Below are positions 6,078-26,268 of a DNA stretch of 34,414 nt, one piece after another. Made by a program: the position numbers and the translations under genes. Each line of letters opens with the position of its first letter. Position 1 is the stretch's first letter. The stretch comes from an uncultured Flavobacteriales bacterium (GTDB lineage Bacteria > Bacteroidota > Bacteroidia > Palsa-965), in the NCBI GenBank assembly GCA_903873905.1, contig CAIQQJ010000052.1, positions 1 through 34,414 on the forward strand, given 5' to 3'. The notes beneath the pieces were generated by a model that saw nothing but the letters and a program-made list of their open reading frames with translations, was not told the DNA's origin and did not search any database.

Positions 6078-6275
6078 TTGAAAAGTTGGAAGATTGGAAA
6101 GTTGAAAAGTTTTTTTCAATCGAAGTTCTTAAGTTTTTTTTTCGGAACCTTCCAACCTTCCAACTTTTCAACCTTTCAACCTTTCAACTTTCCAACTTTC
6201 CAACCTTCAAACCTTCCAACTTTTCAACCTTTCAACTTTTCAACTTTTCAACTTTCCAACTTTCCAACTTTCCAA
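6078..6275. repeat. Tandem 8-base repeat array (CYTTYCAA, 16 units) with a 4-unit inverted arm
   Basis: From 6148 to 6275 there are 16 uninterrupted 8-base units of the form CTTTCCAA, CCTTCCAA, CTTTTCAA or CCTTTCAA. At 6078-6109 four units occur in the opposite orientation (TTGAAAAG, TTGGAAGA, TTGGAAAG, TTGAAAAG), followed by a run of T. The two parts can fold into a long hairpin. It lies between converging genes, starting at one stop codon and ending just before the other, so it may terminate both transcripts. The unit length is not a multiple of three, and open frames through it are artefacts. Confidence 0.85.
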
Positions 6276-6279
6276 CTTG

Positions 6280-8448: not shown

Positions 8449-11400
8449 ATGAAAAATAGTTTCCGCATTTGGTTGCTTGTGTTGTTTGTGATAACGGGTT
8501 TCACATTGAAAATCGGAGCACAGGTAATGCCGAAAAGTTTTGATGAAGATCCCGTGAAATTCATTGCTGAATTGCGCGATTTTTTTGAAAGTTATGAGGG
8601 TAAGGATGGAAAAGAATTCATTGACAAATTCAATGAGAAATATTGGATTACCAACCATGTGAGTCAGGATGTGAAAGATGCGATGTACAAGAATTGCAAT
8701 CAGATGGTGAAGAAAAAGTTTCGACCAAAACCGGAATATTATTCTTACCTCAATACAATCATGTCTATTGCCGATAAGAATGTTTCTGGTGTTACTTTTC
8801 TCGAATGGCAAACGTGTTTTACCACAATTGGAAATGGCAGATTGAATAAACCATTTTCCGATTTCATTGAAATGTCAGAACATCTTTTTGGTGAAAATAA
8901 ATTTTTCAAAACCGCTTCTGGTGAATGGTCTGTCATTGGAGGAACTTGGAAATTTTCCTGTGATAGTGTTTCTTCAGTGAGATTTACCAATGTCACACTT
9001 CACGGTGTTGCAAAAAATGACAGTACCAATATTTTTAATACAAGTGGATTGTATTTCCCTTCATCTGGCATGTGGGTAGGGCAGGGTGGACGTGTGTATT
9101 GGACGCGTGCGGGAATGAAAGAATCAGAAGTGTTTGCCGATTTGAGGAAATATTCTTTTTCTGTAAAAGGATTTTCAATTGTTGCTGACTCCGTTACGTT
9201 CACCAACCAAATTTATTTCAAGGATAAACCCTTGCAGGGAAAATTGTCCGAAAAATTAATTGCTGATGCGCAAATGGCTTCCGCTTCTTATCCGCGATTT
9301 GAATCGTATAGCAGTCGTTATCAAATCAAGTCCATGTATCCGAATGTGGATTATGAAGGTGGATTTACACAAGTGGGTGCGAAGTTCATTGGGTCGGGAA
9401 CAAAAGACAATCAGGCATTTTTTATTTTCAAACGAAATGGAAAAAATTTCCTGCAAGTTACTTCTCCAAGTTTTTCCATCACGAAAGATAAAATTACAAG
9501 TCAAAATGCTGCAGTGAAATTTTCACTTGATGCTGATTCAATTGTACATCCTTCCATCGAATTCAAATATTTCATTGATAGTTCTCGTGTTGTAATTTAT
9601 CGTCCTGAAGAAGGTGCATCACAAGCTCCATTTTATGATTCTTTCCACAAAGTGAATATGTATGTGGAACAGATGACTTGGAAAACAAATGAGCCAACAA
9701 TTATTCTGAACACCGTAATCGGTTCGGCATTGGGAACGGCATCCTTTCCGTCTTCTGATTATTACCGTCAATATTTGTATGACAGATTGCAAGGAATGGA
9801 TATGGTCCATCCATTAATCAAGCTTCGGAATTTTGTTCGTGATGCCAATGGAGGAATAAGAACATTCACGGCAATTGATTTGGCTCGTTACTGGAAAGTT
9901 GCAGTTGAACAACTTCGTCCGACAATTATGGATCTTTCCAATCAGGGTTTTTTGTATTTCGATCCGAAGACAGATATGATCACTTATCTCGACAAATGCG
10001 ATACCTACATTGCAGCACGTGCGGGTAAGAAAGATTATGATAACATTGAGTTCGATTCAAAGGTTGTTCCTGGAAGTGCGAATGCAAAAATTAATTTGTT
10101 GAATTACGACATGACGCTTTTTGGTGTGAATGAAGTTGCCTTGAGTGATTCTCAAAATGTAACCGTGTTTCCGAAAAGTGATATGATCATTTTAAAAAAG
10201 GATAGAAATTTCACTTTCGAAGGTTCCATTATGGCGGGACGTTTTGATTATTACGGAAAACTTTTTGCATTCGATTACAGCACATTTAAATTAAGTCTGA
10301 ACAATGTGGATTCTGTTCGAATTTGGATTGATACAGATCAACGTGACCCAAAAGATCCGAAAGGAAGTTTTGTTCAGATGAAAGTAAAAAGTGTAATTGA
10401 AAATTTGAATGGTGAATTGAAAATCGACGATCCTTCTAATAAATCAGGAACCCAAAGTAAAAAGTATCCGCAATATCCAATTTTCATTAGTGCAAAACCT
10501 TCCTTTGTATATTATGATAAACCTGGAATCCAAAAAGGTGTTTACAATCGCGATAAATTTTATTTCAAACTTGATCCGTTTACAATTGACAGTTTAGATA
10601 ATTTTCAAAATACAGCATTGCAATTTGGTGGAATATTTCAGTCATCAGGAATTTTTCCTGAAATACGAGATACGCTTCGACTCATGCCAGATAAGTCTTT
10701 AGGATTTGTTCGACAAGCGCCACCTGGTGGTTATTCTTTATATGGTGGAAAAGCAAAATTCACCAATGAAATGCGATTGAGCAATAAAGGTTTGCGTGGT
10801 GATGGACAGATAGACTACATAACTTCCACAAGCATTTCAAAGGATTTTATTTTCTATCCCGATTCCATGAATGGTGTTGCTCAAAGTTTTATTATTCGTG
10901 AACAACAGGTCAGTGGAAAAACCGAATATCCTCAGGTAACAGGCTCCACCATTTACATTCACTGGATGCCGAAAAGGGATTTCATGAATGCAACGAATAG
11001 AGATTCAGTTTTTACTGTTTTCAAAGGATTAGCAACAGCAAAAGGAACTTTGACACTTTCGCCAAAAAATCTTCTGGAAAATGGAATTCTACATTTTTTG
11101 GATGCTGATTTGGATTCGCGAAAAATGGTTTTGAAACATCATATTGCCGACGCCGATACTGCTGATTTCAGTTTGAAAGCGATTGCGGCGTCTGGCCTTG
11201 CATTCGCAACCAACAACGTAAATGCACACGTTGATTTCGAAAAACGAGAAGGCGATTTTAAAGCAAATGGAAAAGGTTCAATTGTGAAATTTCCAGTTAA
11301 TCAGTATATCTGTTACATGGAAAATTTCAAATGGTTTATGGATAAAAGTGCAATTGAATTAGGTGGAGCAGCAAAACCAAAACCAGGAATGGACAAACTA

Positions 11401-13008
11401 GATTTGGAAGGACCCGAATTTATTTCTGTTCATCCAAAACAGGATTCCTTGCGATTCCGTGCACCTAAAGCGAAATTTGATTATCGAAATTTCATCATTT
11501 ACGCTTTGGAAGTAAAAGAAATTAATGTGGCTGATGCGCAAATTGTTCCGGATAGCGGAAACATTACCATTCAGAAAAATGCTTTCATGGAAACATTGAC
11601 AAACGCAAAAATCAATGCGAATACGGTTACAAAATATCACCATTTGTTCAATTGTGTCGTTGATATTTATTCACGTCACAGTTATAGTGCTTCTGGCGAT
11701 TACGCTTATGTCGATGAATTGAAAAAAGAACAACTCATCCATTTTGCAAAGGTTGCACCAGATACTTCCTTTCAAACCTATGCTGAGGGAACAATTGCTG
11801 ATTCTTCTCGATTCTATTTGAGTCCCGCTTTTGATTTTCGGGGAACAGTCATTCTTGCTGCTACCAATCCATATCTTGTCTTTGACGGAGCAACTTCCTT
11901 GAATCATGATTGTGCGATCGGAAAAAGCAAACTTCATTTTAAAGGATTGATTAATCCAAGTGAAATTTACATTCCGGTAGAATCATCGCCTGTAAATGAT
12001 AAGGGCGAACCCATAACTTCCGGTTTGGTAAGCACCGTTTCCGCCGATTCCGTTCACATTTATGGATCATTCCTCTCTCCAAAATTGGGAAGAACAGATG
12101 TCAATGTGGTAACGGCAGATGGATTTTTGTTTTTCGATAAAGCTTCACGAGAATATCGGATTTCGAATAAGGAAAAATTGGTTGAACGTTCCCTTCCTGG
12201 AAATTTTGTGAGCTTGAGTACTAAGACCTGTACCGTTTATGGTGAAGGAAAAATGGCACTTGGGGCCAATCTTGGAAAAGTTTACATGAATCCGATCGGA
12301 AATGCGACCCACAATACGGTCAATCATTCCAGTTATTTTGATTTGGTAATTGGACTCGATTTCTTCATGAGCAGTAAGGCAATGGGTGTTTTGGTGGAAG
12401 ATATCAATGCCTCCACAAGTTTGGCTGGAACCGATCCTGGTCGCCAAACATTCCAACGTTCATTGAACGAAATGGTCGGAAAAGACAAGGCCGATAAGTT
12501 GGTTTCTCAGTTAACCTTATATGGTTCCTACAAAAAGTTTCCAGACGAGTTGAACTACACTTTCTTCTTCACAGATGTTAAAATGAACTGGAACCAGAAG
12601 ACTAAATCCTATATTTCTGATGGGAAAATAGGTTTAGGTAATGTTGGTAAAGAGCAGATTAACAAGTACATAACTGGCACAATCATGCTTGAAAGAAAGA
12701 GGAGTGGTGATGTTCTAACCATCTACTTTGAGCTGGATAACAGTAAATGGTATACCTTTAGTTATTCAAACGGGGTCATGCTTTGTTATTCGTCCAACGA
12801 AAAGTTCGTGACAATAATCAAGGAAATGAAAGATGATGACAAATCTGCTCCTGATGATTACAACAAAGAACGCCTAGGAGAAAACAAAGCCAGGTACAAA
12901 TTTACTGCTGGAAGTCCCAACGAAAGGAGTCTTATGCTGAAAAAGCTTAAGCGAGCTGGAGAAGGGGAAGATGGTGGTGATAGTCCTGATAATCCACAAG
13001 GAAATTAA
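8449..13008 (+). CDS. Very large exported protein of unknown function (1519 residues)
   Basis: I do not recognise a characterised family. The N-terminus is a signal peptide (about residues 1-24, ending KIGAQ). The rest is rich in Ser, Asp, Phe, Tyr and Lys and reads as many short alternating beta-strand segments, with recurring patterns such as YYGKLFAFDYSTFKLSLNN and LRGDGQIDYITS. The C-terminal 40 residues are charged and disordered-looking (ends GEGEDGGDSPDNPQ). No TPR, OmpA, TonB plug or T9SS sorting domain is visible. The layered beta-repeat look recalls AsmA/TamB or LptD-like periplasmic proteins, but that is only an impression. It sits ten bases after prmA, and its stop overlaps the plsY start (TAATG), so it is probably co-expressed with a phospholipid-synthesis enzyme. 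Confidence 0.8.
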   Translation: MKNSFRIWLLVLFVITGFTLKIGAQVMPKSFDEDPVKFIAELRDFFESYEGKDGKEFIDKFNEKYWITNHVSQDVKDAMYKNCNQMVKKKFRPKPEYYSYLNTIMSIADKNVSGVTFLEWQTCFTTIGNGRLNKPFSDFIEMSEHLFGENKFFKTASGEWSVIGGTWKFSCDSVSSVRFTNVTLHGVAKNDSTNIFNTSGLYFPSSGMWVGQGGRVYWTRAGMKESEVFADLRKYSFSVKGFSIVADSVTFTNQIYFKDKPLQGKLSEKLIADAQMASASYPRFESYSSRYQIKSMYPNVDYEGGFTQVGAKFIGSGTKDNQAFFIFKRNGKNFLQVTSPSFSITKDKITSQNAAVKFSLDADSIVHPSIEFKYFIDSSRVVIYRPEEGASQAPFYDSFHKVNMYVEQMTWKTNEPTIILNTVIGSALGTASFPSSDYYRQYLYDRLQGMDMVHPLIKLRNFVRDANGGIRTFTAIDLARYWKVAVEQLRPTIMDLSNQGFLYFDPKTDMITYLDKCDTYIAARAGKKDYDNIEFDSKVVPGSANAKINLLNYDMTLFGVNEVALSDSQNVTVFPKSDMIILKKDRNFTFEGSIMAGRFDYYGKLFAFDYSTFKLSLNNVDSVRIWIDTDQRDPKDPKGSFVQMKVKSVIENLNGELKIDDPSNKSGTQSKKYPQYPIFISAKPSFVYYDKPGIQKGVYNRDKFYFKLDPFTIDSLDNFQNTALQFGGIFQSSGIFPEIRDTLRLMPDKSLGFVRQAPPGGYSLYGGKAKFTNEMRLSNKGLRGDGQIDYITSTSISKDFIFYPDSMNGVAQSFIIREQQVSGKTEYPQVTGSTIYIHWMPKRDFMNATNRDSVFTVFKGLATAKGTLTLSPKNLLENGILHFLDADLDSRKMVLKHHIADADTADFSLKAIAASGLAFATNNVNAHVDFEKREGDFKANGKGSIVKFPVNQYICYMENFKWFMDKSAIELGGAAKPKPGMDKLDLEGPEFISVHPKQDSLRFRAPKAKFDYRNFIIYALEVKEINVADAQIVPDSGNITIQKNAFMETLTNAKINANTVTKYHHLFNCVVDIYSRHSYSASGDYAYVDELKKEQLIHFAKVAPDTSFQTYAEGTIADSSRFYLSPAFDFRGTVILAATNPYLVFDGATSLNHDCAIGKSKLHFKGLINPSEIYIPVESSPVNDKGEPITSGLVSTVSADSVHIYGSFLSPKLGRTDVNVVTADGFLFFDKASREYRISNKEKLVERSLPGNFVSLSTKTCTVYGEGKMALGANLGKVYMNPIGNATHNTVNHSSYFDLVIGLDFFMSSKAMGVLVEDINASTSLAGTDPGRQTFQRSLNEMVGKDKADKLVSQLTLYGSYKKFPDELNYTFFFTDVKMNWNQKTKSYISDGKIGLGNVGKEQINKYITGTIMLERKRSGDVLTIYFELDNSKWYTFSYSNGVMLCYSSNEKFVTIIKEMKDDDKSAPDDYNKERLGENKARYKFTAGSPNERSLMLKKLKRAGEGEDGGDSPDNPQGN

Positions 13009-13667
13009 TGACGACAAACGCTATTCTTGCCTTAATGATTGCCTATCTGATTGGATCAATTCCATCGGCTCTTTGGATTGGCAAATTATTTTACAAAATC
13101 GATATTCGAGAACATGGAAGTGGAAATTCCGGTGCTACGAATACATTTCGTGTGTTGGGTAAAAAGGCTGGTATACCAGTACTTCTTCTTGATGTTTTCA
13201 AAGGTTGGGCAGCAGTAATGATGGCCGTTTTTGTTACGGAAGCTCCACAACACTCACAGGATTTTGTCAATATTGAGATTGTCCTTGGAGTTGCTGCTGT
13301 TGTCGGACATATTTTCCCTTTATGGGCAACTTTCCGTGGAGGAAAAGGAATTGCAACTTTGTTTGGAGTTGTGCTTGCGGTGCATCCTTATGCTTGTCTC
13401 ATTTGTGCGGGTATATTTCTCTTGGTTTTCCTAGCAACGCATTACGTTTCCTTGGGCTCAATTTCGGCAGGAATTTCATTTCCAATCACTGTGATTTTCG
13501 TTTATGGGCGTGAAATTGTACCGTCAATGGTTGTCTTTTCTTGTCTTGTTGCCATTCTTATTCTCATCACACACCAGAAAAATATTGAGCGTTTACTTCG
13601 CCGTGAAGAATCGAAAATGTTCTTGGTGAAAAAGAAGAAAGAATCGAACGAAGAAGCTATTGGTTAG
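13008..13667 (+). CDS. plsY: Glycerol-3-phosphate acyltransferase PlsY
   Basis: A 219-residue integral inner-membrane enzyme that transfers an acyl group from acyl-phosphate to glycerol 3-phosphate, giving lysophosphatidic acid, the first step of phospholipid synthesis. All three PlsY motifs are present: GSIPSALWIGK near residue 17, GSGNSGATNTFRVLGKKAG near 37-55 followed by DVFKG, and GHIFPLWATFRGGKGIAT near 100-117. Several hydrophobic segments fit the multi-pass topology. The tail after about residue 195 is lysine- and glutamate-rich. The ATG shares its A with the stop codon of the 1519-residue gene, so translation is very likely coupled. Confidence 0.95.
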   Translation: MTTNAILALMIAYLIGSIPSALWIGKLFYKIDIREHGSGNSGATNTFRVLGKKAGIPVLLLDVFKGWAAVMMAVFVTEAPQHSQDFVNIEIVLGVAAVVGHIFPLWATFRGGKGIATLFGVVLAVHPYACLICAGIFLLVFLATHYVSLGSISAGISFPITVIFVYGREIVPSMVVFSCLVAILILITHQKNIERLLRREESKMFLVKKKKESNEEAIG

Positions 13668-13807: not shown

Positions 13808-13897
13808 TAGTTTGGCGGATAATCTATCGGTTGTTGATCAACACTTGAAAAGACAAGCCCTTACAGGCTAAACTAGCGTTTGCGCGCTAAGCTCAAT

Positions 13898-15406
13898 ATG
13901 CGCATAAGGGAATTATTTTTGTTTATTATTATTGCTTCGGCGGTATTGTTCACGCCATGTCATTTGCGAGCCCAAACGCAGACTACAGATCAAATAATAA
14001 AAGATGCGAATACGAAGTTTGATGACGAAGATTATGCAGCGGCAATGCCTTTGTATTCTCAACTTCTTGCCAACGATAGAAATAATCCGAATTATAATTA
14101 TCGTTATGGCGTTTGTGTTTTGTATGCCAGTTCTGAAAAAGAAAAAGGTCTAGAATATCTTCAGAAAGCTTCGAAGAGTGCGGGTGTGGATGCTGATGTT
14201 TGGTTTTATTTGGGAAAAGCTTATCATTTGAATTACCAATTTGAACAAGCGATAACTTGCTACAATAAATTCAAGAGTTTAGGTGGTGCGAAAAAAGCAA
14301 CCAAATATCAAGTAGATAATCAAATTGCCATGTGCAAAACAGGAAGGAAATTGCTGAAGGCAATTACTGATATCACTGTTATTGAAAAGGCTGAATTAAA
14401 TGAAGCAGATTTTTTCCGTCATTATGATTTGAGTGGTTCTGGTTATAGCGGACAACTTTTGGTAAAACCAGATGAATTTAAAACAGCACTTGATAAAAAG
14501 AAAAAAGAGCAATCCATTATTTTTCTATCTGGTGAAAAGAACGAATTATTTTTTGCTTCCTATGGTGAAGATGAATCGCAAGGGAAAGATATTTATGTAG
14601 TTCGAAAACTGCCGAATGGTAATTGGGGAAAACCTGAGAATGTTGGTTATCCGATCAACACGGAGTTTGATGAAGATTATCCATTCATGCATCCAAATGG
14701 AAAAGTTTTGTATTTCTCATCCAAAGGTCATAACAGTATGGGTGGTTATGATATTTTTCGTTCTGAATTAAATGAGGAAACCAATACGTGGCAGAAACCC
14801 GTCAATTTGGATTTTGCGATCAATTCTCCTGATGATGATATCATGTTCGTTAGTGATCTTGATGAAAAAACGGCATGGTTTGCATCTTCCAGAAATAGTC
14901 CTGAAGGGAAAATGACTGTTTATCATGTTGTGATAGAACGCAAGCCGGTAAATAATTGTTTGATAACAGGAATATTTACTCCAATAAAGGGAGATCAGAA
15001 TCGTGCCGCGAAAATTACTGTGAAGAACTCTGAAACAAATGAGCCGATTGGAGTTTACAATAGTAATGAGGCAACGGGATCTTATTTTATCAATCTGCCT
15101 AACAATGGTGGAAAATATTCCTTCACAATAGATCATACTGGAATTGCAACGCAAACAAATGATGTAATTGTTCCGACTCAATATCAAATTAAAGCCCTGA
15201 ATCAGCAAATTGGGTATGAAGAAATTAATAAAGATTCGAAATTATTTATTCGGACAGATTATGCAACGGATACATCGATGCTTGATCCTTCATTCCTGAA
15301 AGACAAAGCCAAACTTGATATCAATAATGAACCAGTTGCCACGCAAATCACCGACATGGGGGCATTCTTCTGGAACGATTCCCAAAGCTGGAACTACAGA
15401 TTCTAG
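13898..15406 (+). CDS. TPR-PD40-regulatory-domain envelope protein, 5' part of a frameshifted giant gene (PorE-like)
   Basis: 502 residues from the ATG at 13898; an in-frame TTG at 13880 gives six more but sits in front of the signal peptide (RIRELFLFIIIASAVLF, cleavage near LRAQ). Residues about 33-150 are TPR-like helices (ANTKFDDEDYAAAMPLYSQL). Residues about 200-350 are a PD40-type propeller (DIYVVRKLPNGNWGKPENVG, HPNGKVLYFSSKGHNSMGGY). Residues about 350-440 form a carboxypeptidase-regulatory-like beta domain. This is the order seen in the T9SS protein PorE, but the C-terminal OmpA domain is missing. After MG at 15356-15361 the frame runs into nonsense and stops, while the next frame continues sensibly; see the G5 site. 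It most likely belongs with the downstream frame as one protein. Confidence 0.85.
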   Translation: MRIRELFLFIIIASAVLFTPCHLRAQTQTTDQIIKDANTKFDDEDYAAAMPLYSQLLANDRNNPNYNYRYGVCVLYASSEKEKGLEYLQKASKSAGVDADVWFYLGKAYHLNYQFEQAITCYNKFKSLGGAKKATKYQVDNQIAMCKTGRKLLKAITDITVIEKAELNEADFFRHYDLSGSGYSGQLLVKPDEFKTALDKKKKEQSIIFLSGEKNELFFASYGEDESQGKDIYVVRKLPNGNWGKPENVGYPINTEFDEDYPFMHPNGKVLYFSSKGHNSMGGYDIFRSELNEETNTWQKPVNLDFAINSPDDDIMFVSDLDEKTAWFASSRNSPEGKMTVYHVVIERKPVNNCLITGIFTPIKGDQNRAAKITVKNSETNEPIGVYNSNEATGSYFINLPNNGGKYSFTIDHTGIATQTNDVIVPTQYQIKALNQQIGYEEINKDSKLFIRTDYATDTSMLDPSFLKDKAKLDINNEPVATQITDMGAFFWNDSQSWNYRF

Positions 15407-18400
15407 CGATTCCAATGAGGATGACTCAACGACTACTGATAGCTCAACAGGAGTTCCTTCTTCTCATACAGGAGTAAGCAACGAAGAGTTGGTAAAGACT
15501 GCGAATGACGATGCCATTGCCACACAATCGGAAGCAACGGATCTTGATGCTCAAAAAGATCGTGCTTTTAATTATGCTTCTCAATTAAATGAGCAGGCAA
15601 AATCAAAAACACAGGAAGCAGCTCAAGCAAAAAATACGGCCGATGTATTACCTGAAGGTCCCGATAAAAAAGCGGCAGAACAAAAAGCGGCAGATTTAAT
15701 TGCAGCGGCAAATGCTTTGCAATCTCAAGTTGCGGCCTCTACTTCAATGGCACAGGCTTTAGAGGCAGATGCAAAAAACAAACAACAAGAAGCTGATAAG
15801 GCAAAGCAGTATGCAACGAGTTTAGATAAAGCTGTTAAGTCAAAAGATTCTAAAGCACTTGATGATGCACTCGCAAAACAACTTGAATTACAGGCCATGT
15901 CGGATACGCGACCTGAAAGTGAATCGACAGCGAAAAATTTACAAATAGAGGCTGATAAAAAAGATGCCGAATTAGAAAAGGCAAAAACTTCTTCTCAAGA
16001 TATGAAAGAAGAAATTGCCCAGAATCAACAGCGCATTGGACAATTAAAAGCAGAGGAAGCAAAAGAAAAAGATCCTGAATTAAAGAAAGGTATTGAAGCA
16101 CAGATTGAGGGAATCAATGAGGATATTGCCGATGACGAAAAACTCCTTGTTGCTGATCAGAAAAAAGTTGAACTCCTACAAAATCAATCCAACGATTTAA
16201 ATAATCAGGCGAAGGCTGCGAATGATGTCATTGTGCAATCGAAAAACCCTGCCGTTTCTTCCACTCCGATTTCAATTGAAAATAAAAATGCACTTAGTAA
16301 GGATGCAATAGCATATCAACAAACCTCCACTGAAATAGGAACTTCAAAAGTTTATGCTCCAGTAACGGGTACACAAACAGCAGGTGTTCAAACTACTGAC
16401 ACACAAACAACAGGAACACAAACAGCAGGTGTTCAGACAACTGACACACAAACAACAGGAACACAAACTTCGGTTACACAGACAACGGACACACAAATAC
16501 CTGGAAATGATTCTACGAATACTGTTGTTGCGGATGAAAATCCTGATTCAGCATATTCAGACGCGTTGCAAAAAGCGGATACAATTAGTGATCCAATTGC
16601 CCGTGAAAAAGCAAAGGGTGAAGTTTATTCCAATTGGGCTTCAAATATTGATGATCAAATAAATGAAAAGAAACAGGAGATCGCAGGAACAAAGGATAAA
16701 ACAAAGAAAGCGGAGTTGAATGCTGATCTTAAAAAATTGCAGGCTTCATCCGAACAGAAAAAACAGGATTCGAAAAACAGCGTTGCTGCAGCAAATAAAG
16801 CGGAGAAAGATAAAATTGCCCAGCAAGGAACGCAGCAAGTCGCTTTACCTGATGATCAATTTGTAAAACAAATTTCCGCTGCAGATCAGAATCCTTCGGT
16901 AGTGGAAAAGGAAAATAAAAAGGCGCAAGTTTATTCTGACTGGGCCGATGCACTCGATTCAACGGCTGTTGTGAAAGAAAACAACCTTACTAAGATCAAA
17001 AACAAGACGCAACAAGAAAAAGCAAAACAGGAAATAGCAGCAATTCGTGCTGATGCCGAATCGAAGCGAAATCTTTCTGATGAAGCCAAAACAAAAGCTA
17101 CGGAGGCAGAAACAGCTTCTCAAACCACAGGAACACAATCCAATCCTACGGAGGTTCATTATGATAGTCCCGAAGCAAATTCTGCATTACAGGAACAAAA
17201 ACAATTAGTTGATCAAGCAAACCAGAACAGGCAGAACAAGGATTCACTTTCTAATTTGGCTTCAACTAAAGAGGGTGATGAAAAGAACCAATTGTTGAAA
17301 GCGGCAACTGAACAGCAGCGACAAGCTTGGGAAAAAGATGCACAAGCCTCCGCTAAAATGGGTGATGCGAATAAACTTCAATTTGAAAAAAATAATAATC
17401 AATTGAATGGATTTGATGCAGCAGCTGTTAATAGCAATGATCCTTCCGTTTCAACAGCCTCGCTTCTTTCTGATGAATCGAAAAAACTATTTGAAAAGGC
17501 AAAGCAAGATCGTGCAACTGCTGTAGCTTCCGATAATAATTATATCAAGAATGAAGCACTGCAAAGTGCTGAAGAAAACGAGAAAAAAGCATTACAAAAA
17601 CAACAAGATGCAATTACACTTTATAAGAAGAGTGGAATTCAGCCTATTGCTGTTACACAAACAACAGATACAAAAACATCAGGTACACAAACAGCGGGAA
17701 CACAGACAGCCGGTACACAAACTACAGATACACAAACAGCAGGAACTCAAACTACAGATACACAAACAACAGGAACACATCCTACAGATACACAAACTAC
17801 AGGCACACAAACAGCAGGAACTCAAACTACAGATACACAAACTACAGGCGCACAAACTACAGGAACTCAAACCACGGATACACAGACAGCAGGCACACAA
17901 ACCACAGATACACAAACTACTGGCACGCAATCCACGAATACACAAACTACAGGAACACAAACTACAGGAACACAAACTACAGGAACACAAACTACAGGAA
18001 CACAAACTACAGGTACACAAACTACAGGAACACAAACTACAGGAACACAAACCACGGATACGCAGACTACAGGAACGCAATCCACGAATACACAAACTAC
18101 AGGAACACAAACCACAAATACTGCCATGCAGGAAATTGTTGATCCTACAAGTGGTCAACCTTTCACTTCTAATCAGTTAAATCAAATTAGATCAAGTGAT
18201 CCTTTCAAGAATTATACTGCTGCAAATCTTGACGCAGTTAATTCTGAAAATAATTCTGCTAATCTAAAACTACAAGCTGATAGTTTTCAATTAAGTGCTA
18301 ATTCAAATGTCGCGAAAGCTCAAGATATTGCTTTACAAGCTGCAGATGAAAAAGATCAAACGAAGAAGAAAGAATTGATTGCGGAATCAAAAAAATACAA

Positions 18401-20240
18401 TTCCATGGCGAAAAATGACATGGGTTCCCGTGATTCCTTAGAAGAATTGGTTGATGTTGAATTGATGAATGCAAATGCAAATCATAACAAAGCGAATTTG
18501 GCATTACAAGGACTTGACCAACCAGCAATTAACAATATTAAAATTGTTGCAAAAGCAGATCAAACGAATTCGGGAGATGTTGCACGTACAGGAACACAAA
18601 CAGCGGACACGCAAACTACAGGATCTCAAACAGCAGGAACGCAAACCACGGACACTCAAACTACAGGTACGCAAACTACAGGAACTCAAACAGCGGACAC
18701 GCAAACTACAGGTGCGCAAACAGCGGGTGCACAAACTTCAGGAACACAAACAGCAGACACACAAACTACAGGTGCGCAAACTACCGGAACTCAAACAGCA
18801 GACACACAAACTACAGGTGCGCAAACTACCGGAACTCAAACAGCAGACACACAAACTACAGGAACACAAACCAAAGCTCACAATACGAATACTTCTTCTG
18901 TTTCTAGTCGGCTTTCTCCTGGTGAACAATTTGCTATTGTCCCTAAAACAAGTTCAACACCTATTACCGTCATAAAAATAAATCCTTCATTGCCAGAAGG
19001 GCTGGTTTACAAAGTGCAAATTGGAGCTTTCAGAAATCCAATCTCTTCTGAAATTTACAAAGGCATTGCTCCTGTATGTGCAGAAACAACTGCTTCCGGA
19101 TTGACTCGTTATACAGCAGGACTCTTTAAGGAATTTGCAAATGCTGATGCTGCTAAAGTTGAAATTCGCGGAATGGGATATCCTGATGCATTTGTTGTTG
19201 CTTTCTATAACGGAAAAAGAATATCAATTGATGAAGCAAGACGTTTAAAGGGAGACTCCGGAATGCACCCAATTACAGAGACGCATCCTGAAAATGGAAC
19301 GCAAACAAGTGATACCCAAACAACGGGAACTCAAACAACGGACGCGCAAACCACAAACAATCCTGATAAAGGAAATCAATCCTATCAAGGAAATACAACT
19401 GGGCAGGATGTGAAACAAGTAAAAGGATTATTCTTCACTGTACAAATCGGAGTGTATAAGAATCAAGTTAGCAATTCAAAATTGAAGAATCTACCAGAAA
19501 TTGTAAATGAAAAAACAGCAAATGGATTCATTAGATATTCTTCTGGAAAATATTGCAGTGTTGATGCAGCTGTTGTGGCAAAAGACAAGGCAGTTTCAAA
19601 AGGAATAACTGACGCATTTGTTACGGCTTATTATAATGGAAAGCGAATAACCCCTGCTGAAGCTCAATCCTTAATTGAAACAGGTGTTTCACCTTGTGCT
19701 GATGGGCAAAAACAAACTTCAAACAACAGCAGCCAAACAAGCAATAGTCAAACTAGTGGTAGTCAAGGAACACAACCTTCGAATAATGGCAGTCAAACTA
19801 GCAGTAGTCAAAGAACACAACCTTCGAATAATGGCAGTCCAGCTAGTAGTCAAGGAACACAGCCATCGAATAGTGGCAGTCAAACTAGCAATAACGGTGA
19901 GCAGGGTACGCAAAACTCTTCTACCTCAACCTTAAGTACAAAAGCTCCTGTGCCTGAAACAGGTTTGGTATTTAGTGTACAAATCGGTGCTTTCCGTGAG
20001 GAAGTTCCTGTTGAAATTGCAAATCAATTCCTGCAACTTTCGAGCAAGGGCGTGAAAAATTATCTTGATGGAGGAACTGGACTTACTGTATATCAGGTTG
20101 GTGTTTGTGTTACCAAGGAAGAAGCGGAGGCATTGCGAGCTGAAGCAGTTGCAAAAGGAATTACGGATGCATTCATAGTTGCGTTTAAGGATGGTAAGAA
20201 AATTACCATGGAAGAAGCCATGCAGTTGTTGGGACAATAA
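15315..20240 (+). CDS. Giant helical/TQTTG-repeat protein with three SPOR domains, 3' part of the frameshifted gene
   Basis: The open frame has 1641 codons from the first Met at 15315, but the true start is doubtful: the first residues are not sensible and there is no signal peptide. Reading from GHSSGTIPKAG at 15360 as a continuation of the upstream frame gives one protein of about 2,113 residues. Alanine/lysine/glutamine-rich, coiled-coil-like segments lie at about 15480-16240, 16540-17130, 17160-17640 and 18130-18570. TQTTG-type pentapeptide arrays lie between them. Three Bacteroidota-type SPOR domains close the protein (about 18999-19260, 19425-19680 and 19962-20237), each with VQIGAF or VQIGVY at the start and DAF(V/I)V or DAFVT plus GK(R/K)I near the end. 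SPOR domains bind denuded peptidoglycan, so the protein must be exported; the upstream frame supplies the signal. Confidence 0.82.
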   Translation: MISIMNQLPRKSPTWGHSSGTIPKAGTTDSSDSNEDDSTTTDSSTGVPSSHTGVSNEELVKTANDDAIATQSEATDLDAQKDRAFNYASQLNEQAKSKTQEAAQAKNTADVLPEGPDKKAAEQKAADLIAAANALQSQVAASTSMAQALEADAKNKQQEADKAKQYATSLDKAVKSKDSKALDDALAKQLELQAMSDTRPESESTAKNLQIEADKKDAELEKAKTSSQDMKEEIAQNQQRIGQLKAEEAKEKDPELKKGIEAQIEGINEDIADDEKLLVADQKKVELLQNQSNDLNNQAKAANDVIVQSKNPAVSSTPISIENKNALSKDAIAYQQTSTEIGTSKVYAPVTGTQTAGVQTTDTQTTGTQTAGVQTTDTQTTGTQTSVTQTTDTQIPGNDSTNTVVADENPDSAYSDALQKADTISDPIAREKAKGEVYSNWASNIDDQINEKKQEIAGTKDKTKKAELNADLKKLQASSEQKKQDSKNSVAAANKAEKDKIAQQGTQQVALPDDQFVKQISAADQNPSVVEKENKKAQVYSDWADALDSTAVVKENNLTKIKNKTQQEKAKQEIAAIRADAESKRNLSDEAKTKATEAETASQTTGTQSNPTEVHYDSPEANSALQEQKQLVDQANQNRQNKDSLSNLASTKEGDEKNQLLKAATEQQRQAWEKDAQASAKMGDANKLQFEKNNNQLNGFDAAAVNSNDPSVSTASLLSDESKKLFEKAKQDRATAVASDNNYIKNEALQSAEENEKKALQKQQDAITLYKKSGIQPIAVTQTTDTKTSGTQTAGTQTAGTQTTDTQTAGTQTTDTQTTGTHPTDTQTTGTQTAGTQTTDTQTTGAQTTGTQTTDTQTAGTQTTDTQTTGTQSTNTQTTGTQTTGTQTTGTQTTGTQTTGTQTTGTQTTGTQTTDTQTTGTQSTNTQTTGTQTTNTAMQEIVDPTSGQPFTSNQLNQIRSSDPFKNYTAANLDAVNSENNSANLKLQADSFQLSANSNVAKAQDIALQAADEKDQTKKKELIAESKKYNSMAKNDMGSRDSLEELVDVELMNANANHNKANLALQGLDQPAINNIKIVAKADQTNSGDVARTGTQTADTQTTGSQTAGTQTTDTQTTGTQTTGTQTADTQTTGAQTAGAQTSGTQTADTQTTGAQTTGTQTADTQTTGAQTTGTQTADTQTTGTQTKAHNTNTSSVSSRLSPGEQFAIVPKTSSTPITVIKINPSLPEGLVYKVQIGAFRNPISSEIYKGIAPVCAETTASGLTRYTAGLFKEFANADAAKVEIRGMGYPDAFVVAFYNGKRISIDEARRLKGDSGMHPITETHPENGTQTSDTQTTGTQTTDAQTTNNPDKGNQSYQGNTTGQDVKQVKGLFFTVQIGVYKNQVSNSKLKNLPEIVNEKTANGFIRYSSGKYCSVDAAVVAKDKAVSKGITDAFVTAYYNGKRITPAEAQSLIETGVSPCADGQKQTSNNSSQTSNSQTSGSQGTQPSNNGSQTSSSQRTQPSNNGSPASSQGTQPSNSGSQTSNNGEQGTQNSSTSTLSTKAPVPETGLVFSVQIGAFREEVPVEIANQFLQLSSKGVKNYLDGGTGLTVYQVGVCVTKEEAEALRAEAVAKGITDAFIVAFKDGKKITMEEAMQLLGQ
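15358..15362 (+). other. G5 run: site of the apparent +1 frameshift
   Basis: Five G residues follow CAT. The upstream frame reads ATG-GGG-GCA and then loses sense. With four G it reads ATG-GGG-CAT-TCT and flows into the downstream frame (MG then HSSGTIPKAG). One extra base, real or a sequencing or assembly error, explains both the 92-base overlap of the two frames and the missing signal peptide of the second. Confidence 0.75.
16371..16505 (+). repeat. TQTTG-type array 1 (9 units of 15 bases)
   Basis: Nine in-frame 15-base units encode pentapeptides such as TQTAG, VQTTD and TQTTG. The array lies between the first and second helical segments of the giant protein. Confidence 0.9.
17655..18119 (+). 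repeat. TQTTG-type array 2 (31 units of 15 bases)
   Basis: Thirty-one consecutive 15-base units encode TQTTG, TQTTD, TQTAG, TQSTN and close variants. Seven consecutive units at 17940-18044 all encode TQTTG and are almost identical in DNA (ACACAAACTACAGGA, one with a final T). The purity of this core suggests recent slippage expansion. Other-frame and antisense open frames across it (HKLQE or CSLCS repeats) are artefacts. Confidence 0.93.
18594..18863 (+). repeat. TQTTG-type array 3 (18 units of 15 bases)
   Basis: Eighteen units, with a degenerate nineteenth (TQTKA), encode TQTAD, TQTTG and AQTTG. The last part alternates TQTAD-TQTTG-AQTTG, a 45-base higher-order repeat. It separates the fourth helical segment from the first SPOR domain. 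Confidence 0.9.
19299..19358 (+). repeat. TQTTG-type array 4 (4 units) between SPOR 1 and SPOR 2
   Basis: Four units encode TQTSD, TQTTG, TQTTD and AQTTN, linking the first and second SPOR domains. A related but more degenerate Ser/Asn/Gln-rich linker (TQPSNNGSQTSS pattern) at about 19720-19920 links SPOR 2 and SPOR 3. Confidence 0.8.
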
Positions 20241-20275: not shown

Positions 20276-20563
20276 ATGAGTTTTTTCTTTAATCATCAAA
20301 CTGAAACATTTACAGAAGTTCTCGTTGAAGAACAAATAGTTCCTTTAAAGGATCTTGTCATTTACAATGACGATTTCAATACGTTTCAGCACGTGATCAT
20401 ATCACTCTGCGATATTTGCGATCATGATCCGATTCAAGCTGAACAGTGTGCGCATATCATTCACAACAAAGGTAAATGTGGCGTCAAACGTGGTGCAATT
20501 GAAGATTTGAAATCAATGTGCCTTGCATTGTTAGATCGTGGTCTTTCTGCGAAAATTGAATAG
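20276..20563 (+). CDS. clpS: ATP-dependent Clp protease adaptor ClpS
   Basis: A 95-residue ClpS, the adaptor that captures N-degron substrates and delivers them to ClpA-type unfoldases. After a flexible N-terminus of about 25 residues comes LVIYNDDFNTFQHVI, in which N31, D32 and D33 match the residues that hold the substrate alpha-amino group. His63 in IIHNKGKCGVKRG matches the conserved pocket histidine, and the final helix EDLKSMCLALLDRGL is typical. Size agrees with the family. It is transcribed from its own promoter at the end of the giant gene, and no clp ATPase gene is nearby. Confidence 0.93.
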   Translation: MSFFFNHQTETFTEVLVEEQIVPLKDLVIYNDDFNTFQHVIISLCDICDHDPIQAEQCAHIIHNKGKCGVKRGAIEDLKSMCLALLDRGLSAKIE

Positions 20564-22435: not shown

Positions 22436-24928
22436 ATGCTTAAATCATTTATACGGATTCCGATTGCGGTTATATCTCTACTGCTTTCTGTATTTCCTTC
22501 TCACGCTCAACTTGTAATCAACGAATATTCCTGTGCCAATATCAATAGCATTCCGGATAATTTTGCTGAATACAATGATTGGGTGGAATTATACAATGCC
22601 GGTTCATCAACAATTAGTTTGACTGGCTATTACATGAGTGATAAAGGAACTAACCCAAATCAATGGGCATTCCCTTCTGGTTCAGTTGCCTCACATGGTT
22701 TTATTAAAGTGGTTTGTTCAAAACGAAATGTTGTTAATGGATTGGAATATCACACCAGTTTCTCATTGACACAATGTAAGCCAGAAGAAATTATTTTGGC
22801 CGATGCAAGTGGAATTGTTGACTCAGTTGGTATTCGTAGAAATCAAGCAGGCCATTCTTGGGGAAGAACAACCGATGGAGCAACTACTTGGAGTGTTTTT
22901 CTTAATCCAACTTTTGGTTCTTCGAATGCAACAAGTACAGCTTATCAACCTTATGCAACGATGCCGAATTTCAGTTTGGCTGCAGGTTATTATCCAGGTA
23001 CACAAACACTCACGATTTCAACACCTGATCCGAATATTACTATTCATTATACTGTAAATGGTTACGAACCTGTAATAAGTGATCTTGTTTATGCAGCACC
23101 GATTTCCATTTCTTCAAGTCAGGTTGTTCGCGCAAAAGCATTCAGTAGCACTGCAACTATTCCTCCGAGTTTTATTCAGAATAGATCTTATTTCATAAGT
23201 GTTGCTGTACATACCATTGCAACCATTTCAATTTATGGAGACAATGTGATGGACTTAATGCTTGGTAACTGGAATGCATTTCCCGAAACAAGTTTGGAAT
23301 ATTTCGACAAAAGCGGTGTTCCAAGAACAAAAGTTAGCGGCAATACGAATAAGCACGGAAATGATTCTTGGGCTTATGATCAACGTGGAATTGATTTTAA
23401 ATCGGCGGATGAAGAAGGTTATGATTATGCATTGAACTGGAAACTTTTCACACGTACACCGCGCCATCATTTTAAGGATATTATTTTTAAGGCTGCAGCC
23501 AATGACAATTATCCCTTTGAAGCAGGCAGCGCACATATTCGTGATGCTTATTGTGAGACACTTTCGCAAGAAGCTCAATTGCATTTAGATGAACGTACCT
23601 ACGAACCTTGTGAAATGTATGTTAATGGTCTGTATTGGGGCGTATATGAAATCCGTGAAAAAGTGGATGACAATGATTTTACGAATTATTATTACAATCA
23701 AGATGTTCCCAATGTTCAAATGCTGAAAACCTGGGGAGCTACTTGGTCGGCTTATGGTGGTCCGCAAGCACAAACAGATTGGAATACAATTCAGAGTTAC
23801 ATTGTTTCTAACAACATGGCTGTCCCTGCGAATTTCACGCATGTTGATACCATTTATAATTGGAAAAGTCTTTGCGATTATGTTATTCTCAATTCTGTTT
23901 GTGTTACTTCCGATTGGCTGAATTGGAATACACAATGGTGGCGAGGTCTTGATCCAAATGGTGGAGCAAACCGTTGGCGATATACGCTTTGGGATAATGA
24001 TGCAACATTTGGACATTACATCAATTACACTGGAATTCCAGATACTTCTCCTACCGCTGATCCCTGCAATCCGGAAACACTTCTTGATCCAGGTGGACAA
24101 GGACATATTCCTGTTTTAAATGCATTAATGGCCAATCCTACTTTCAAACAATACTATGTAAATCGATATGCAGATTTATTGAATACATCTTTCAGTTGTG
24201 ATTCATTGATTGCATTACTTGATACAATGATTGGAACGATTGCACCTGATATGCCAGCACAATGTGCGCGTTGGAGTGGAAGTATGGCCACATGGCAAGC
24301 GAATGTTGCTACAATGCGTTCCTATATTCAAACGCGTTGTGTTGCATTACAAACAGGAATGATTGATTGTTATAATCTTACCGGACCATTCAATGTAACA
24401 TTGGAAGTTCAACCTGTTGGAGCAGGAACAATTAATTGCAATTCATTGCACCTCGATCAATTTCCATGGAGCGGCCAATATTATGGAGGCATTCCGATTA
24501 TTCTTCAAACTGCGCCAACGTCATCGATCTACACTTTTGATCATTGGGAAATGACAAGTGTTCCAACTCCTTCTTCAACGGTTGATAGTGTGAATATCAA
24601 TCTCACTGGACCTGATCATATCATTGCTGTTTATGTTACCAATGAAATTCTTTCCAACGTTTTTATTCCAACTGCATTTTCTCCCAATAATGATAACAAT
24701 AACGACATGCTTTTCATTCACGGATTAGATCCGAATCAAAATGCGGAAATTATTATTTTCAATCGTTGGGGACAACAGGTTTTTGAAACGAAAGATATGA
24801 GTCAAGGTTGGGACGGAAATAGTGGAGGCACTCCTTGTCCTTCTGGAGTATATGCATACATGCTCAAAGCAACTAATCCTGATGGTTCTAGTGAAATAAA
24901 GTCGGGTAACATTACACTGATGCGTTAA
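22436..24928 (+). CDS. Lamin-tail/CotH-kinase surface protein with type B T9SS sorting domain
   Basis: An 830-residue T9SS cargo protein. Domains in order: signal peptide (to SHAQ, about 25); lamin-tail domain (about 25-150, starting LVINEYSCAN with DWVELYNAG); a chitobiase/hexosaminidase C-terminal-like beta domain (about 180-245, ITIHYTVNGYEP); a CotH-like atypical kinase (about 255-600), with GNDSWAYDQRGIDFKS, VNGLYWGVYEIREKVDDNDF and WRYTLWDNDATFGHY as likely ATP/metal-binding segments; a beta-rich linker; and the gliding-motility-associated C-terminal (CHU_C, type B) domain at about 740-830 (IPTAFSPNNDNNNDMLFI, FNRWGQQVFE, GVYAYMLKA). CotH-type kinases phosphorylate surface proteins in other bacteria; the target here is unknown. 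The PorP/SprF gene follows after 21 bases, the usual pairing for type B cargo. Confidence 0.9.
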   Translation: MLKSFIRIPIAVISLLLSVFPSHAQLVINEYSCANINSIPDNFAEYNDWVELYNAGSSTISLTGYYMSDKGTNPNQWAFPSGSVASHGFIKVVCSKRNVVNGLEYHTSFSLTQCKPEEIILADASGIVDSVGIRRNQAGHSWGRTTDGATTWSVFLNPTFGSSNATSTAYQPYATMPNFSLAAGYYPGTQTLTISTPDPNITIHYTVNGYEPVISDLVYAAPISISSSQVVRAKAFSSTATIPPSFIQNRSYFISVAVHTIATISIYGDNVMDLMLGNWNAFPETSLEYFDKSGVPRTKVSGNTNKHGNDSWAYDQRGIDFKSADEEGYDYALNWKLFTRTPRHHFKDIIFKAAANDNYPFEAGSAHIRDAYCETLSQEAQLHLDERTYEPCEMYVNGLYWGVYEIREKVDDNDFTNYYYNQDVPNVQMLKTWGATWSAYGGPQAQTDWNTIQSYIVSNNMAVPANFTHVDTIYNWKSLCDYVILNSVCVTSDWLNWNTQWWRGLDPNGGANRWRYTLWDNDATFGHYINYTGIPDTSPTADPCNPETLLDPGGQGHIPVLNALMANPTFKQYYVNRYADLLNTSFSCDSLIALLDTMIGTIAPDMPAQCARWSGSMATWQANVATMRSYIQTRCVALQTGMIDCYNLTGPFNVTLEVQPVGAGTINCNSLHLDQFPWSGQYYGGIPIILQTAPTSSIYTFDHWEMTSVPTPSSTVDSVNINLTGPDHIIAVYVTNEILSNVFIPTAFSPNNDNNNDMLFIHGLDPNQNAEIIIFNRWGQQVFETKDMSQGWDGNSGGTPCPSGVYAYMLKATNPDGSSEIKSGNITLMR

Positions 24929-24949
24929 TTTTCGGAAGGGAAGATTGTT

Positions 24950-25978
24950 ATGAAACGTTTGTGTATTTATTTTGGATTGTTTTTTTTCTCTGCCACAACT
25001 GTTGTTGGACAGGATATTCATTTCTCGCAATTTCCTGAAACGCCCATGCATATTAATCCTGCTAACACAGGTTTGTTTGACGGATTATTTCGCGCCACTT
25101 TAAATTATAGAAATCAATGGGCAGCAATGGGTCATCCCTTTACAACCGCTGCAGCTGCGTTTGATATGCCCTTGATGTATGCAAAGAATAAAGCGTACAT
25201 GGGAGTTGGTGCTTTTCTTTATCGCGATCAAGCAGGTGATTCGAAATTCGGAACTTTTCAAGGATTGGTTTCCGTAAGTGGAATTGTTCCCTTGAATGAT
25301 TTCAATAAATTATCAGTTGGAATTCAAGGAGGCTATTCACAACGCTCTGCAACTACAGCTGATTTGCAATGGGAAAATCAATATGTGAATGGTGTGTATG
25401 ATCCGACTATTCTTCCCAATGAAAATAATTTGTTGACCTCATTTCCTTATGTGGATTTTTCTGCTGGAACTGCGTATCAATATCGCAACAGAGCACAAAG
25501 TATTACTGGGCAAGATGTGAATGAATTCAGTTTTGGCGCAAGTGTTTTTCATTTGAACAAGCCTGAACAAAAATTTCATCAGGGAGGAGGAGAGCGCATG
25601 GATATGCGTTTTGTAATTCACGGACAAGGACGAATAGATTTTTCAGGGACGCGATGGTCCTTGCGACCTTCCGCATATTACATGGCTCAAGGAAATGCAA
25701 ATGAAATTTTATTTGGAACAATGCTTCGTTACAGAATCAAAAATGGAACGAAGGTGACTAATTTTTTCAGTGAATCGGGAATTGGACTGGGTGTTCATTA
25801 TCGATTTAAAGATGCAATCATTCCTCAACTGTATTATGATCTCGGAGATATTTTCATTGGTGTTTCATATGATGTAAATATTTCAAAATATTCGGCAGCA
25901 TCTAAATCTCAAGGTGGATTTGAAGTTACCTTGCGCTATGCAAATCTGAATGGAGCTTTGTATAAAAACAAGAAATAA
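24950..25978 (+). CDS. PorP/SprF-family type IX secretion membrane protein
   Basis: A 342-residue outer-membrane beta-barrel protein of the PorP/SprF family. It has a signal peptide (residues 1-21, ending VVGQ) and the typical start DIHFSQFPETPMHINPANTG, then FRATLNYRNQWAAMG and PFTTAAAAFDMPLM. The C-terminus alternates polar and aromatic residues (FEVTLRYANL), as barrel proteins do. SprF-like proteins are needed for secretion or surface display of the type B cargo encoded next to them, so this one probably serves the CotH protein 21 bases upstream. No other T9SS core gene (porK/L/M/N, sov) is in the window. Confidence 0.92.
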   Translation: MKRLCIYFGLFFFSATTVVGQDIHFSQFPETPMHINPANTGLFDGLFRATLNYRNQWAAMGHPFTTAAAAFDMPLMYAKNKAYMGVGAFLYRDQAGDSKFGTFQGLVSVSGIVPLNDFNKLSVGIQGGYSQRSATTADLQWENQYVNGVYDPTILPNENNLLTSFPYVDFSAGTAYQYRNRAQSITGQDVNEFSFGASVFHLNKPEQKFHQGGGERMDMRFVIHGQGRIDFSGTRWSLRPSAYYMAQGNANEILFGTMLRYRIKNGTKVTNFFSESGIGLGVHYRFKDAIIPQLYYDLGDIFIGVSYDVNISKYSAASKSQGGFEVTLRYANLNGALYKNKK

Positions 25979-26000
25979 ATAATTATTATTTGGTGTGAAT

Positions 26001-26114
26001 ATGAAAAAGTGGTGGAAAGAATTTTACAAAAAATATCTAATACATTTTCCTGACGTTTGGCAATATCTTTTGCTGATCATCCTTGCAATCTTGGCTGCGA
26101 TATTTTATTTGTAG
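26001..26114 (+). CDS. Putative 37-residue single-pass membrane peptide
   Basis: An ATG frame 22 bases after the porP/sprF-like gene. The product begins with a basic/aromatic segment (KKWWKEFYKKYLIHF), followed by one hydrophobic helix (YLLLIILAILAAIFYL) that ends at the stop codon: an amphipathic start plus a membrane anchor. It could be the third gene of the CotH-PorP unit. No database family can be claimed from sight, and an open frame of this length may arise by chance, but its composition and position make a real gene plausible. Confidence 0.45.
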   Translation: MKKWWKEFYKKYLIHFPDVWQYLLLIILAILAAIFYL

Positions 26115-26178
26115 CTTTTCCTTAAATGTTAATGCTTCATAAATATTTGAATTTCTTTCATTCTGAATGCGCTTTTTA

Positions 26179-26186
26179 TACATTTG
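26179..26186 (+). promoter_or_regulatory. -7 box of the DUF2341/T9SS protein gene
   Basis: TACATTTG is an exact TAnnTTTG match, giving a leader of about 57 bases before the ATG at 26249. A -33 TTG at the right distance is not seen. Confidence 0.45.
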
Positions 26187-26230
26187 CCGCAAATTGAAGA
26201 AGGTATAACCCAACCAAAATCATCCTAATT

Positions 26231-26268
26231 AAAAACCCCAAATTCGCTATGATGAAAAACCCCAAATT
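26231..26268 (+). repeat. 14-base direct repeat flanking the start codon
   Basis: AAAAACCCCAAATT occurs at 26231-26244 and again at 26255-26268 with a period of 24 bases. The first copy is in the untranslated leader; the second encodes residues 3-6 of the protein. The ATGATG start lies between the copies. Confidence 0.8.

Follow-up and report, generated by a model that had tools for sequence, protein, structure and literature searches.

The stretch of DNA analysed here, 34,414 nucleotides from an uncultured Flavobacteriales bacterium and hereafter called the window, encodes a protein from a conserved Bacteroidia family that is apparently unnamed so far and has members of roughly 1,800-2,600 residues. 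What sets the family apart is its domain architecture, with three position-specific SPOR domains and their conserved contact residues, its great length and its lack of a lipobox. We give about an even chance to the reading that these proteins are soluble periplasmic tethers on amidase-processed cell wall, with a bias towards the septum. The first-pass annotation of the window had described a head of TPR, PD40-propeller and carboxypeptidase-regulatory-like (CRD) domains, a long spacer of helical and TQTTG repeat sequence and three SPOR domains. This layout was borne out, in two reading frames with a frameshift between them. The features are listed in Table 1.

Table 1. Features of the three-SPOR gene and its conserved neighbours, in window positions
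Feature	Position	Strand	Remarks
1,519-aa exported protein	8449..13008	+	conserved neighbour; no Pfam or NCBIfam match
plsY-type glycerol-3-phosphate acyltransferase	13008..13667	+	conserved neighbour
ORF A	13898..15406	+	signal-peptide-like N-terminus (ends ..RAQ) and protein head, to the stop of its own frame
TPR domain	13985..14362	+	sub-threshold Pfam TPR models; model helices 30-155; Z 17.0 to TPR structures
Short beta-propeller region	14372..14980	+	one PD40 repeat over the Pfam cut-off at 14651-14761; limits approximate
CRD region	14993..15262	+	CarboxypepD_reg below cut-off; model strands
ORF B	15315..20240	+	spacer and three SPOR domains
Frameshift zone	15315..15406	+	linker with little conservation where the two frames overlap; a single frame runs through in relatives
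Helical block 1	15471..16313	+	partly conserved across the family
TQTTG-type repeat array 1	16364..16497	+	tandem DNA repeat; absent from relatives
Further helical blocks	16536..17648	+	include two copies of a helical module (protein residues 871-970, 984-1071)
TQTTG-type repeat array 2	17654..18121	+	tandem DNA repeat
Last helical block of spacer	18132..18563	+	from the spacer analysis
TQTTG-type repeat array 3	18587..18871	+	tandem DNA repeat
SPOR domain 1	18993..19247	+	most conserved; Gln 27/27, Arg 27/27; Pfam 26.7 bits
SPOR domain 2	19419..19673	+	Gln 27/27, Arg/Lys 27/27; no Pfam match alone
SPOR domain 3	19956..20228	+	Gln 23/27; Arg position mostly Ile/Val; Pfam 24.7 bits
ClpS-like adaptor	20276..20563	+	conserved neighbour

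Gene layout and frame break

As assembled, the layout from head to SPOR domains is covered by no single ORF and spans two overlapping ORFs on the + strand in different frames, at 13880-15406 (first ATG at 13898) and 15315-20240. The head was searched in 59 genomes, namely the window's own genome and 58 relatives. At the fetched loci of the relatives, head through spacer formed one ORF, typically of 1,800-2,600 aa where it was uncut by a contig end, and the N-termini were of the signal-peptide-like type found in ORF A. Because the relatives are single unbroken ORFs, the comparison identifies the window pair as one gene with a local frameshift. When the window gene was compared with three relatives of the genus, pN (0.21-0.38) was far lower than pS (0.73-0.85) on either side of the break; this dN/dS test is rough because the synonymous sites are saturated. 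Whole-protein coordinates refer to the read-through protein of 2,113 residues, in which both ORFs are joined across the break.

We take the break to be either an error of sequencing or assembly or a mutation of recent date. With this frameshift in the window copy, the strain may not produce the anchored form. Programmed frameshifting was rejected, since uncut relatives with head and SPOR domains need no frame change and the shift sits in a variable linker. That the two ORFs are separate genes, one for a head-only protein like the paralogs without a wall domain and one for a spacer-SPOR protein, is extremely unlikely: the frames do differ as assembled and head-only paralogs exist, but the uncut relatives join head and SPOR in one ORF, except for two without the triple SPOR, and ORF B opens inside the linker with, as judged by eye, no signal peptide of its own.

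The triple SPOR tail

SPOR domains were counted in 38 proteins, comprising the window protein, 36 orthologs and one paralog from its own genome (L087). Eight ortholog ORFs ran off contig ends, showed no SPOR domain and were left out, which gave 29 uncut proteins, the window's included. Exactly three SPOR domains were present in 27 of the 29; the exceptions were one protein with a single SPOR domain (L082, genome G014) and one with none (L083, genome G020). The paralog carried one SPOR domain by Pfam. In the window protein, SPOR1 and SPOR3 each passed the PF05036 cut-off of 21 alone, and SPOR2 matched the family profile at 1e-32, a profile that was seeded with SPOR2 itself. A chance low-complexity match as the explanation of SPOR2 was ruled out by the family profile, the SPOR tree and the structural model. 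Judged from the sequences, the triple SPOR tail is a family trait, beyond chance. A tree of the 81 SPOR domains held three changes of position label, where the minimum is two, and a number as low was reached in none of 200 shuffles; support within the tree was modest and some SPOR3 branches were long. By this tree, SPOR1, SPOR2 and SPOR3 form position-specific groups.

According to the available part of PMC6895207, SPOR domains bind glycan only after amidases have stripped its peptides, and in RlpA the residue Q270 and its neighbours touch the glycan. The V-Q-x-G motif of the family SPOR domains corresponds to Q270 and these neighbours, and the glycan-contacting Gln was kept in every SPOR1 and SPOR2 and in most SPOR3 domains (Table 1). 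A basic residue on the next strand, which is Arg in all SPOR1, Arg or Lys in all SPOR2 and mostly Ile or Val in SPOR3 domains, is, from its position in the strand, the likely counterpart of RlpA R309. SPOR3 may do something else, given that most members have lost its basic residue and 4 of 27 its Gln.

The tail was modelled with AlphaFold2 from four sequences. The model had three separate domains with a common order of elements, a pTM of 0.29 and ten-residue means of pLDDT mostly between 50 and 90 in the domains and under 35 in the linkers; head and tail models together rest on four to five sequences, with a pTM of 0.39 for the head. All three SPOR domains were predicted as a beta-alpha-beta-beta-alpha-beta unit. 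Foldseek matched the tail model best to the CwlC SPOR domain (E 3.7e-3, probability 1.00). In a structural second look, CwlC, RlpA with denuded glycan, RlpA and DamX took ranks 1, 2, 3 and 5 (Z 5.7-7.9) and FtsN rank 9, the Z values over the ranks running from 7.9 to 4.8. The CwlC match had a Z of 7.9 over 73 residues at an rmsd of 2.5; the tool itself rates such Z values as middling. The structural matches aligned to SPOR3, and SPOR1 and SPOR2 showed an equal order of elements. The proposal of three SPOR folds as C-terminal wall binders is thus supported by Pfam, by the family profile and by comparison of the model with solved SPOR domains, and structure prediction, which had been suggested as a check, returned predicted SPOR folds in this region with CwlC, RlpA and DamX among the closest solved structures.

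With FtsN, DamX, DedD, RlpA and CwlC the window family shares a C-terminal SPOR fold with the conserved Gln and a low-complexity linker ahead of it. It differs from them in its three SPOR domains, its TPR-propeller-CRD head, its signal-peptide-like N-terminus and its spacer of 1,000-1,750 residues.

Further SPOR proteins were seen in the window and in its genome. Two tandem proteins of ~300 aa (29787-30686 and 31153-32055) end in a SPOR-like domain, which the family profile matches at 3e-10 and 1e-15, and the first of them also gave a weak CarboxypepD_reg match. Elsewhere in the genome (C178, L101:4163-6391) a 743-aa ORF carries three SPOR domains and no TPR-PD40 head, and the 474-aa ORF next to it carries one more SPOR domain.

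The spacer

In the read-through protein, 1,228 residues lie between the head and SPOR1. For the family, spacer length was judged by the start of SPOR1; a direct estimate failed in at least 5 of 27 rows (L060, L064, L066, L070, L072). The first residue of SPOR1 falls between 1457 and 2240 in each of the 27 three-SPOR proteins, which leaves ~1,000-1,750 residues between head and tail throughout. Fragments of the first helical block matched in 9-16 of the 38 proteins. TQT[TAS][GD] units numbered 47 in the window protein and 0 in the other 37; the low-complexity parts are thus unshared, other proteins having NTNNS, TTQPE or DNQNQ repeats. The length of the spacer looks kept and its sequence drifts, which is an observation rather than a selection test. 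As to the earlier suggestion that reach is set by repeat length, the spacer is always long across the family, but the TQTTG repeat was confined to this species in the set of proteins compared.

The head and its relation to CHU_0125

Each TPR model in the head was below threshold alone (best 24.2 bits, Pfam), and the TPR fold was clear in the head model (119 residues, rmsd 2.1 Å; Z in Table 1). PD40 scored 29.3 bits against a Pfam cut-off of 20.9. CarboxypepD_reg reached 17.4 bits against a cut-off of 32.3 and was backed by the domain order and by beta strands of the model, in which the strands beyond the TPR part were of lower confidence. The fold search of the head ranked TPR structures first, and its lists barely probed the propeller and CRD; they contained neither PorE nor other T9SS structures, which has no bearing either way. 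Searched against solved structures, the head sequence matched TPR proteins only, mostly designed ones, and its TPR part resembles peptide-binding TPRs, with matches to CHIP, SycD and PcrH. A motif scan found no lipobox at the signal end of the window protein; in the 37 other proteins it returned one chance upstream match (L063), one match in mature sequence (L070) and one possible lipobox (L079). ORF A, ORF B and the joined protein gave no match to an OmpA domain.

The best NCBIfam match of the head was CHU_0125 (NF053607), at 117.5 bits and far under the cut-off of 620. Both proteins have a TPR-PD40 head and are exported and wall-linked; the window protein differs in lacking an OmpA domain and in carrying a giant spacer and SPOR domains. 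The head belongs to a kind that serves in PorE and in CHU_0125 as an outer-membrane scaffold. The match would suit a general tether of the Pal or CHU_0125 kind, which joins wall and outer membrane along the whole cell and not specially at the septum, and so would the effect of deleting CHU_0125 in Cytophaga, after which, according to the accessible part of PMC5891637, cells are sensitive to harmful compounds and vesicle output is up about 6-fold. We consider such a general tether unlikely, since the window protein has neither OmpA domain nor lipobox and SPOR domains, as the available text of PMC6895207 has it, require peptide-free glycan and not bulk wall.

Relation to PorE

PorE is described, in the accessible part of PMC7192894, as an outer-membrane lipoprotein with a TPR domain (25-149), a propeller (167-435), a CRD (441-527) and an OmpA_C domain (534-668). 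The window family shares with it the TPR, propeller and CRD-like head in equal order and a C-terminal wall-binding part. It differs in having three SPOR domains in place of OmpA_C, and the window protein has about 2,100 residues against about 670, a propeller region of about 200 residues against 269, and no lipobox. Against the PorE model NF052230 the head scored 91.6 bits, where the cut-off is 600, and matched profile positions 286-456 only.

The first-pass annotation had seen the protein as a PorE whose OmpA anchor was replaced, a view that found no support: two tandem PorE-like OmpA proteins coexist with it in the genome, and the head tree separates the families. The pair (L088, C24) consists of TPR-PD40-OmpA proteins that match over the full PorE model at 527.5 and 498.8 bits and show no lipobox by motif scan; such a pair is frequent in the genus. 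A canonical PorE elsewhere in the genome had been named as a finding that would speak against the replacement idea, and the pair comes near to it, with full-length matches that both lie below the curated cut-off of 600. In a related genome (G057), a PorE over the cut-off (658.8 bits) and a long three-SPOR protein occur together.

The head tree, which was midpoint-rooted, contained 18 paralogs of the window's genome, of which nine carry OmpA, three SPOR and six neither of them, and ten of the 27 long three-SPOR heads. The long three-SPOR heads formed one clade (100/100) that joined three paralogs without a wall domain (99/97), apart from the PorE-like pair. From this grouping the long three-SPOR family is placed as an old separate paralog, a relative of PorE. 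The expectation that other TPR-PD40-SPOR architectures exist was confirmed by three more in the same genome, of 959 aa with three SPOR domains (C111, L089:3131-6007), 684 aa with one (C77) and 662 aa with one (C179). These share the head type and SPOR C-terminus of the window protein, but they have no giant spacer and form their own clade (100/99). As long and short SPOR proteins stand in separate clades, SPOR was probably joined to TPR-PD40 heads more than once. TPR-PD40-CRD heads thus occur with OmpA, with one SPOR domain, with three or with nothing, and therefore the head alone should not serve to call PorE.

Genomic neighbourhood and distribution

Neighbours were counted at the 36 ortholog loci, with loci short of flank dropped and only the window's own genes as queries. 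Upstream, plsY was found at 20 of 35 loci, the 1,519-aa protein at 18 of 35 and prmA at 14 of 27; clpS lay directly downstream at 19 of 27. No T9SS gene was found among the recurring neighbours with these queries. The conserved neighbours are housekeeping genes and name no pathway. Relatives of the 1,519-aa protein were present in 53 of the 59 genomes, most of them about 1,500 aa long and often adjoining prmA and plsY, which makes it a large conserved protein in its own right. The window also contains an intergenic 8-base tandem repeat, AACTTTCC, in about 16 copies (6146-6278). At 22436-28792 a CotH-kinase protein with a type B T9SS signal adjoins a PorP/SprF-like gene and is followed by a type A T9SS protein that has internal repeats of 213 bases.

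A SPOR1 profile match of at least 123 bits was obtained in 30 of the 59 genomes and, among 296 genomes taken phylum-wide, was as strong in only two, the window's own and G099. SprA was found in 56 of the 59 genomes, including all 30 with the family. Association tests treated genomes as independent, with relatedness uncontrolled, and three genomes whose copies run off contigs (G004, G010, G029) were dropped. The family occurred in 30 of 53 SprA-positive and 0 of 3 SprA-negative genomes (p 0.09). Where a PorE-like protein was present the count was 28 of 42, against 2 of 14 where it was absent (p 1.3e-3). For GldJ it was 30 of 47 where the match was strong and 0 of 9 elsewhere (p 4e-4), strong meaning an E below 1e-90, a line drawn after the gap in the list had been seen. 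PorE-like proteins thus coexist in 28 of the 30 family-positive genomes.

These counts do not establish the link to T9SS or gliding that was first suggested. The family is missing from 23 of 53 SprA-positive genomes and is not present wherever T9SS is; its restriction to strong-GldJ genomes favours a gliding-related role and is the best evidence for the gliding idea. Gliding tracks are described as consisting of GldJ, GldK and GldN, and the available part of that account names no SPOR protein (PMC12635249). An alternative wall anchor of a T9SS or gliding component, doing the job of PorE with SPOR in place of OmpA, would fit the head order common to PorE, the restriction to strong-GldJ genomes, SprA in every family-positive genome and the PorP/SprF-like gene 4.7 kb downstream in the window. 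Set against this are the coexisting PorE-like OmpA proteins, two of them in the window's own genome, the separation of the families in the head tree, the SprA-positive genomes without the protein, prmA, plsY and clpS as the recurring neighbours and the score far below the PorE cut-off, and we regard this anchor as quite unlikely.

Proposed function

A role as a wall-recruited chaperone or scaffold for exported cargo, in which the TPRs bind clients and spacer and SPOR domains just hold the head near wall growth, is very unlikely: the TPR part is like peptide-binding TPRs and sister paralogs lack any wall domain, so that the head works unanchored in kin, but TPR folds are common and uninformative on clients, and a spacer of 1,000+ residues would be unnecessary.

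The septum-biased periplasmic tether, which we hold at even chance, can be set out as follows. From known SPOR biochemistry, the triple SPOR tail would bind glycan strands stripped of peptides by amidases. As SPOR needs amidase-stripped glycan, the tail should mark amidase-processed, mostly septal wall, and as stripped wall is enriched at the septum, the tether would be enriched there, gathering in or close to places where cells divide or amidases act. The flexible helical and low-complexity spacer of 1,000-1,750 residues would let the head reach a partner far from the wall anchor, and we infer that this partner is most likely a protein that sits on the outer membrane's inner face. The outer membrane, or an envelope assembly, would thereby be held to newly processed wall, possibly for outer-membrane constriction or daughter-cell separation. 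Counted for this reading, along with the near-constant number of SPOR domains, their position-specific groups, the kept contact residues, the model matches, the late start of SPOR1 and the low pN, were an Amidase_3 protein with its own C-terminal SPOR domain in the same genome (C114; L102:222-1571) and the conserved place beside prmA, the 1,519-aa protein, plsY and clpS. Weighed against it were the residue losses of SPOR3, the restriction to strong-GldJ genomes, the small number of sequences behind the models, the housekeeping nature of the neighbours and the frameshift in the window copy.

A bolder form, possible but tentative, is a distinct kind of Bacteroidia division-site tether in which three non-equivalent SPOR domains read denuded glycan at high avidity. 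Its length-selected, hardly sequence-selected spacer would be the molecular line along which a PorE-type head is brought from the wall at the septum to the outer membrane or a gliding/T9SS track. In this way the splitting of the wall would be coupled to constriction of the outer membrane or to the turnover of tracks.

In the open literature, with subscription journals mostly outside the scope of the search, no account was found of a protein of such design or of the family, nor any experiment on one of its members. A SPOR protein of Cytophaga hutchinsonii has reportedly been shown at the E. coli septum. The terms 'SPOR domain' and 'type IX secretion' co-occurred there only in a paper that, by its listing, concerns type II secretion. 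Searches of the same literature for three, two, tandem or multiple SPOR domains yielded only PMC6895207 as relevant, where the phrase, in the part available, refers to many different SPOR domains.

A spacer of which the length but not the sequence is kept makes tether length a measurable question. Being conserved, 2,000 residues long and nearly invariant in its triple SPOR tail, the protein may offer a handle on the link that these bacteria make between wall splitting and the outer membrane.
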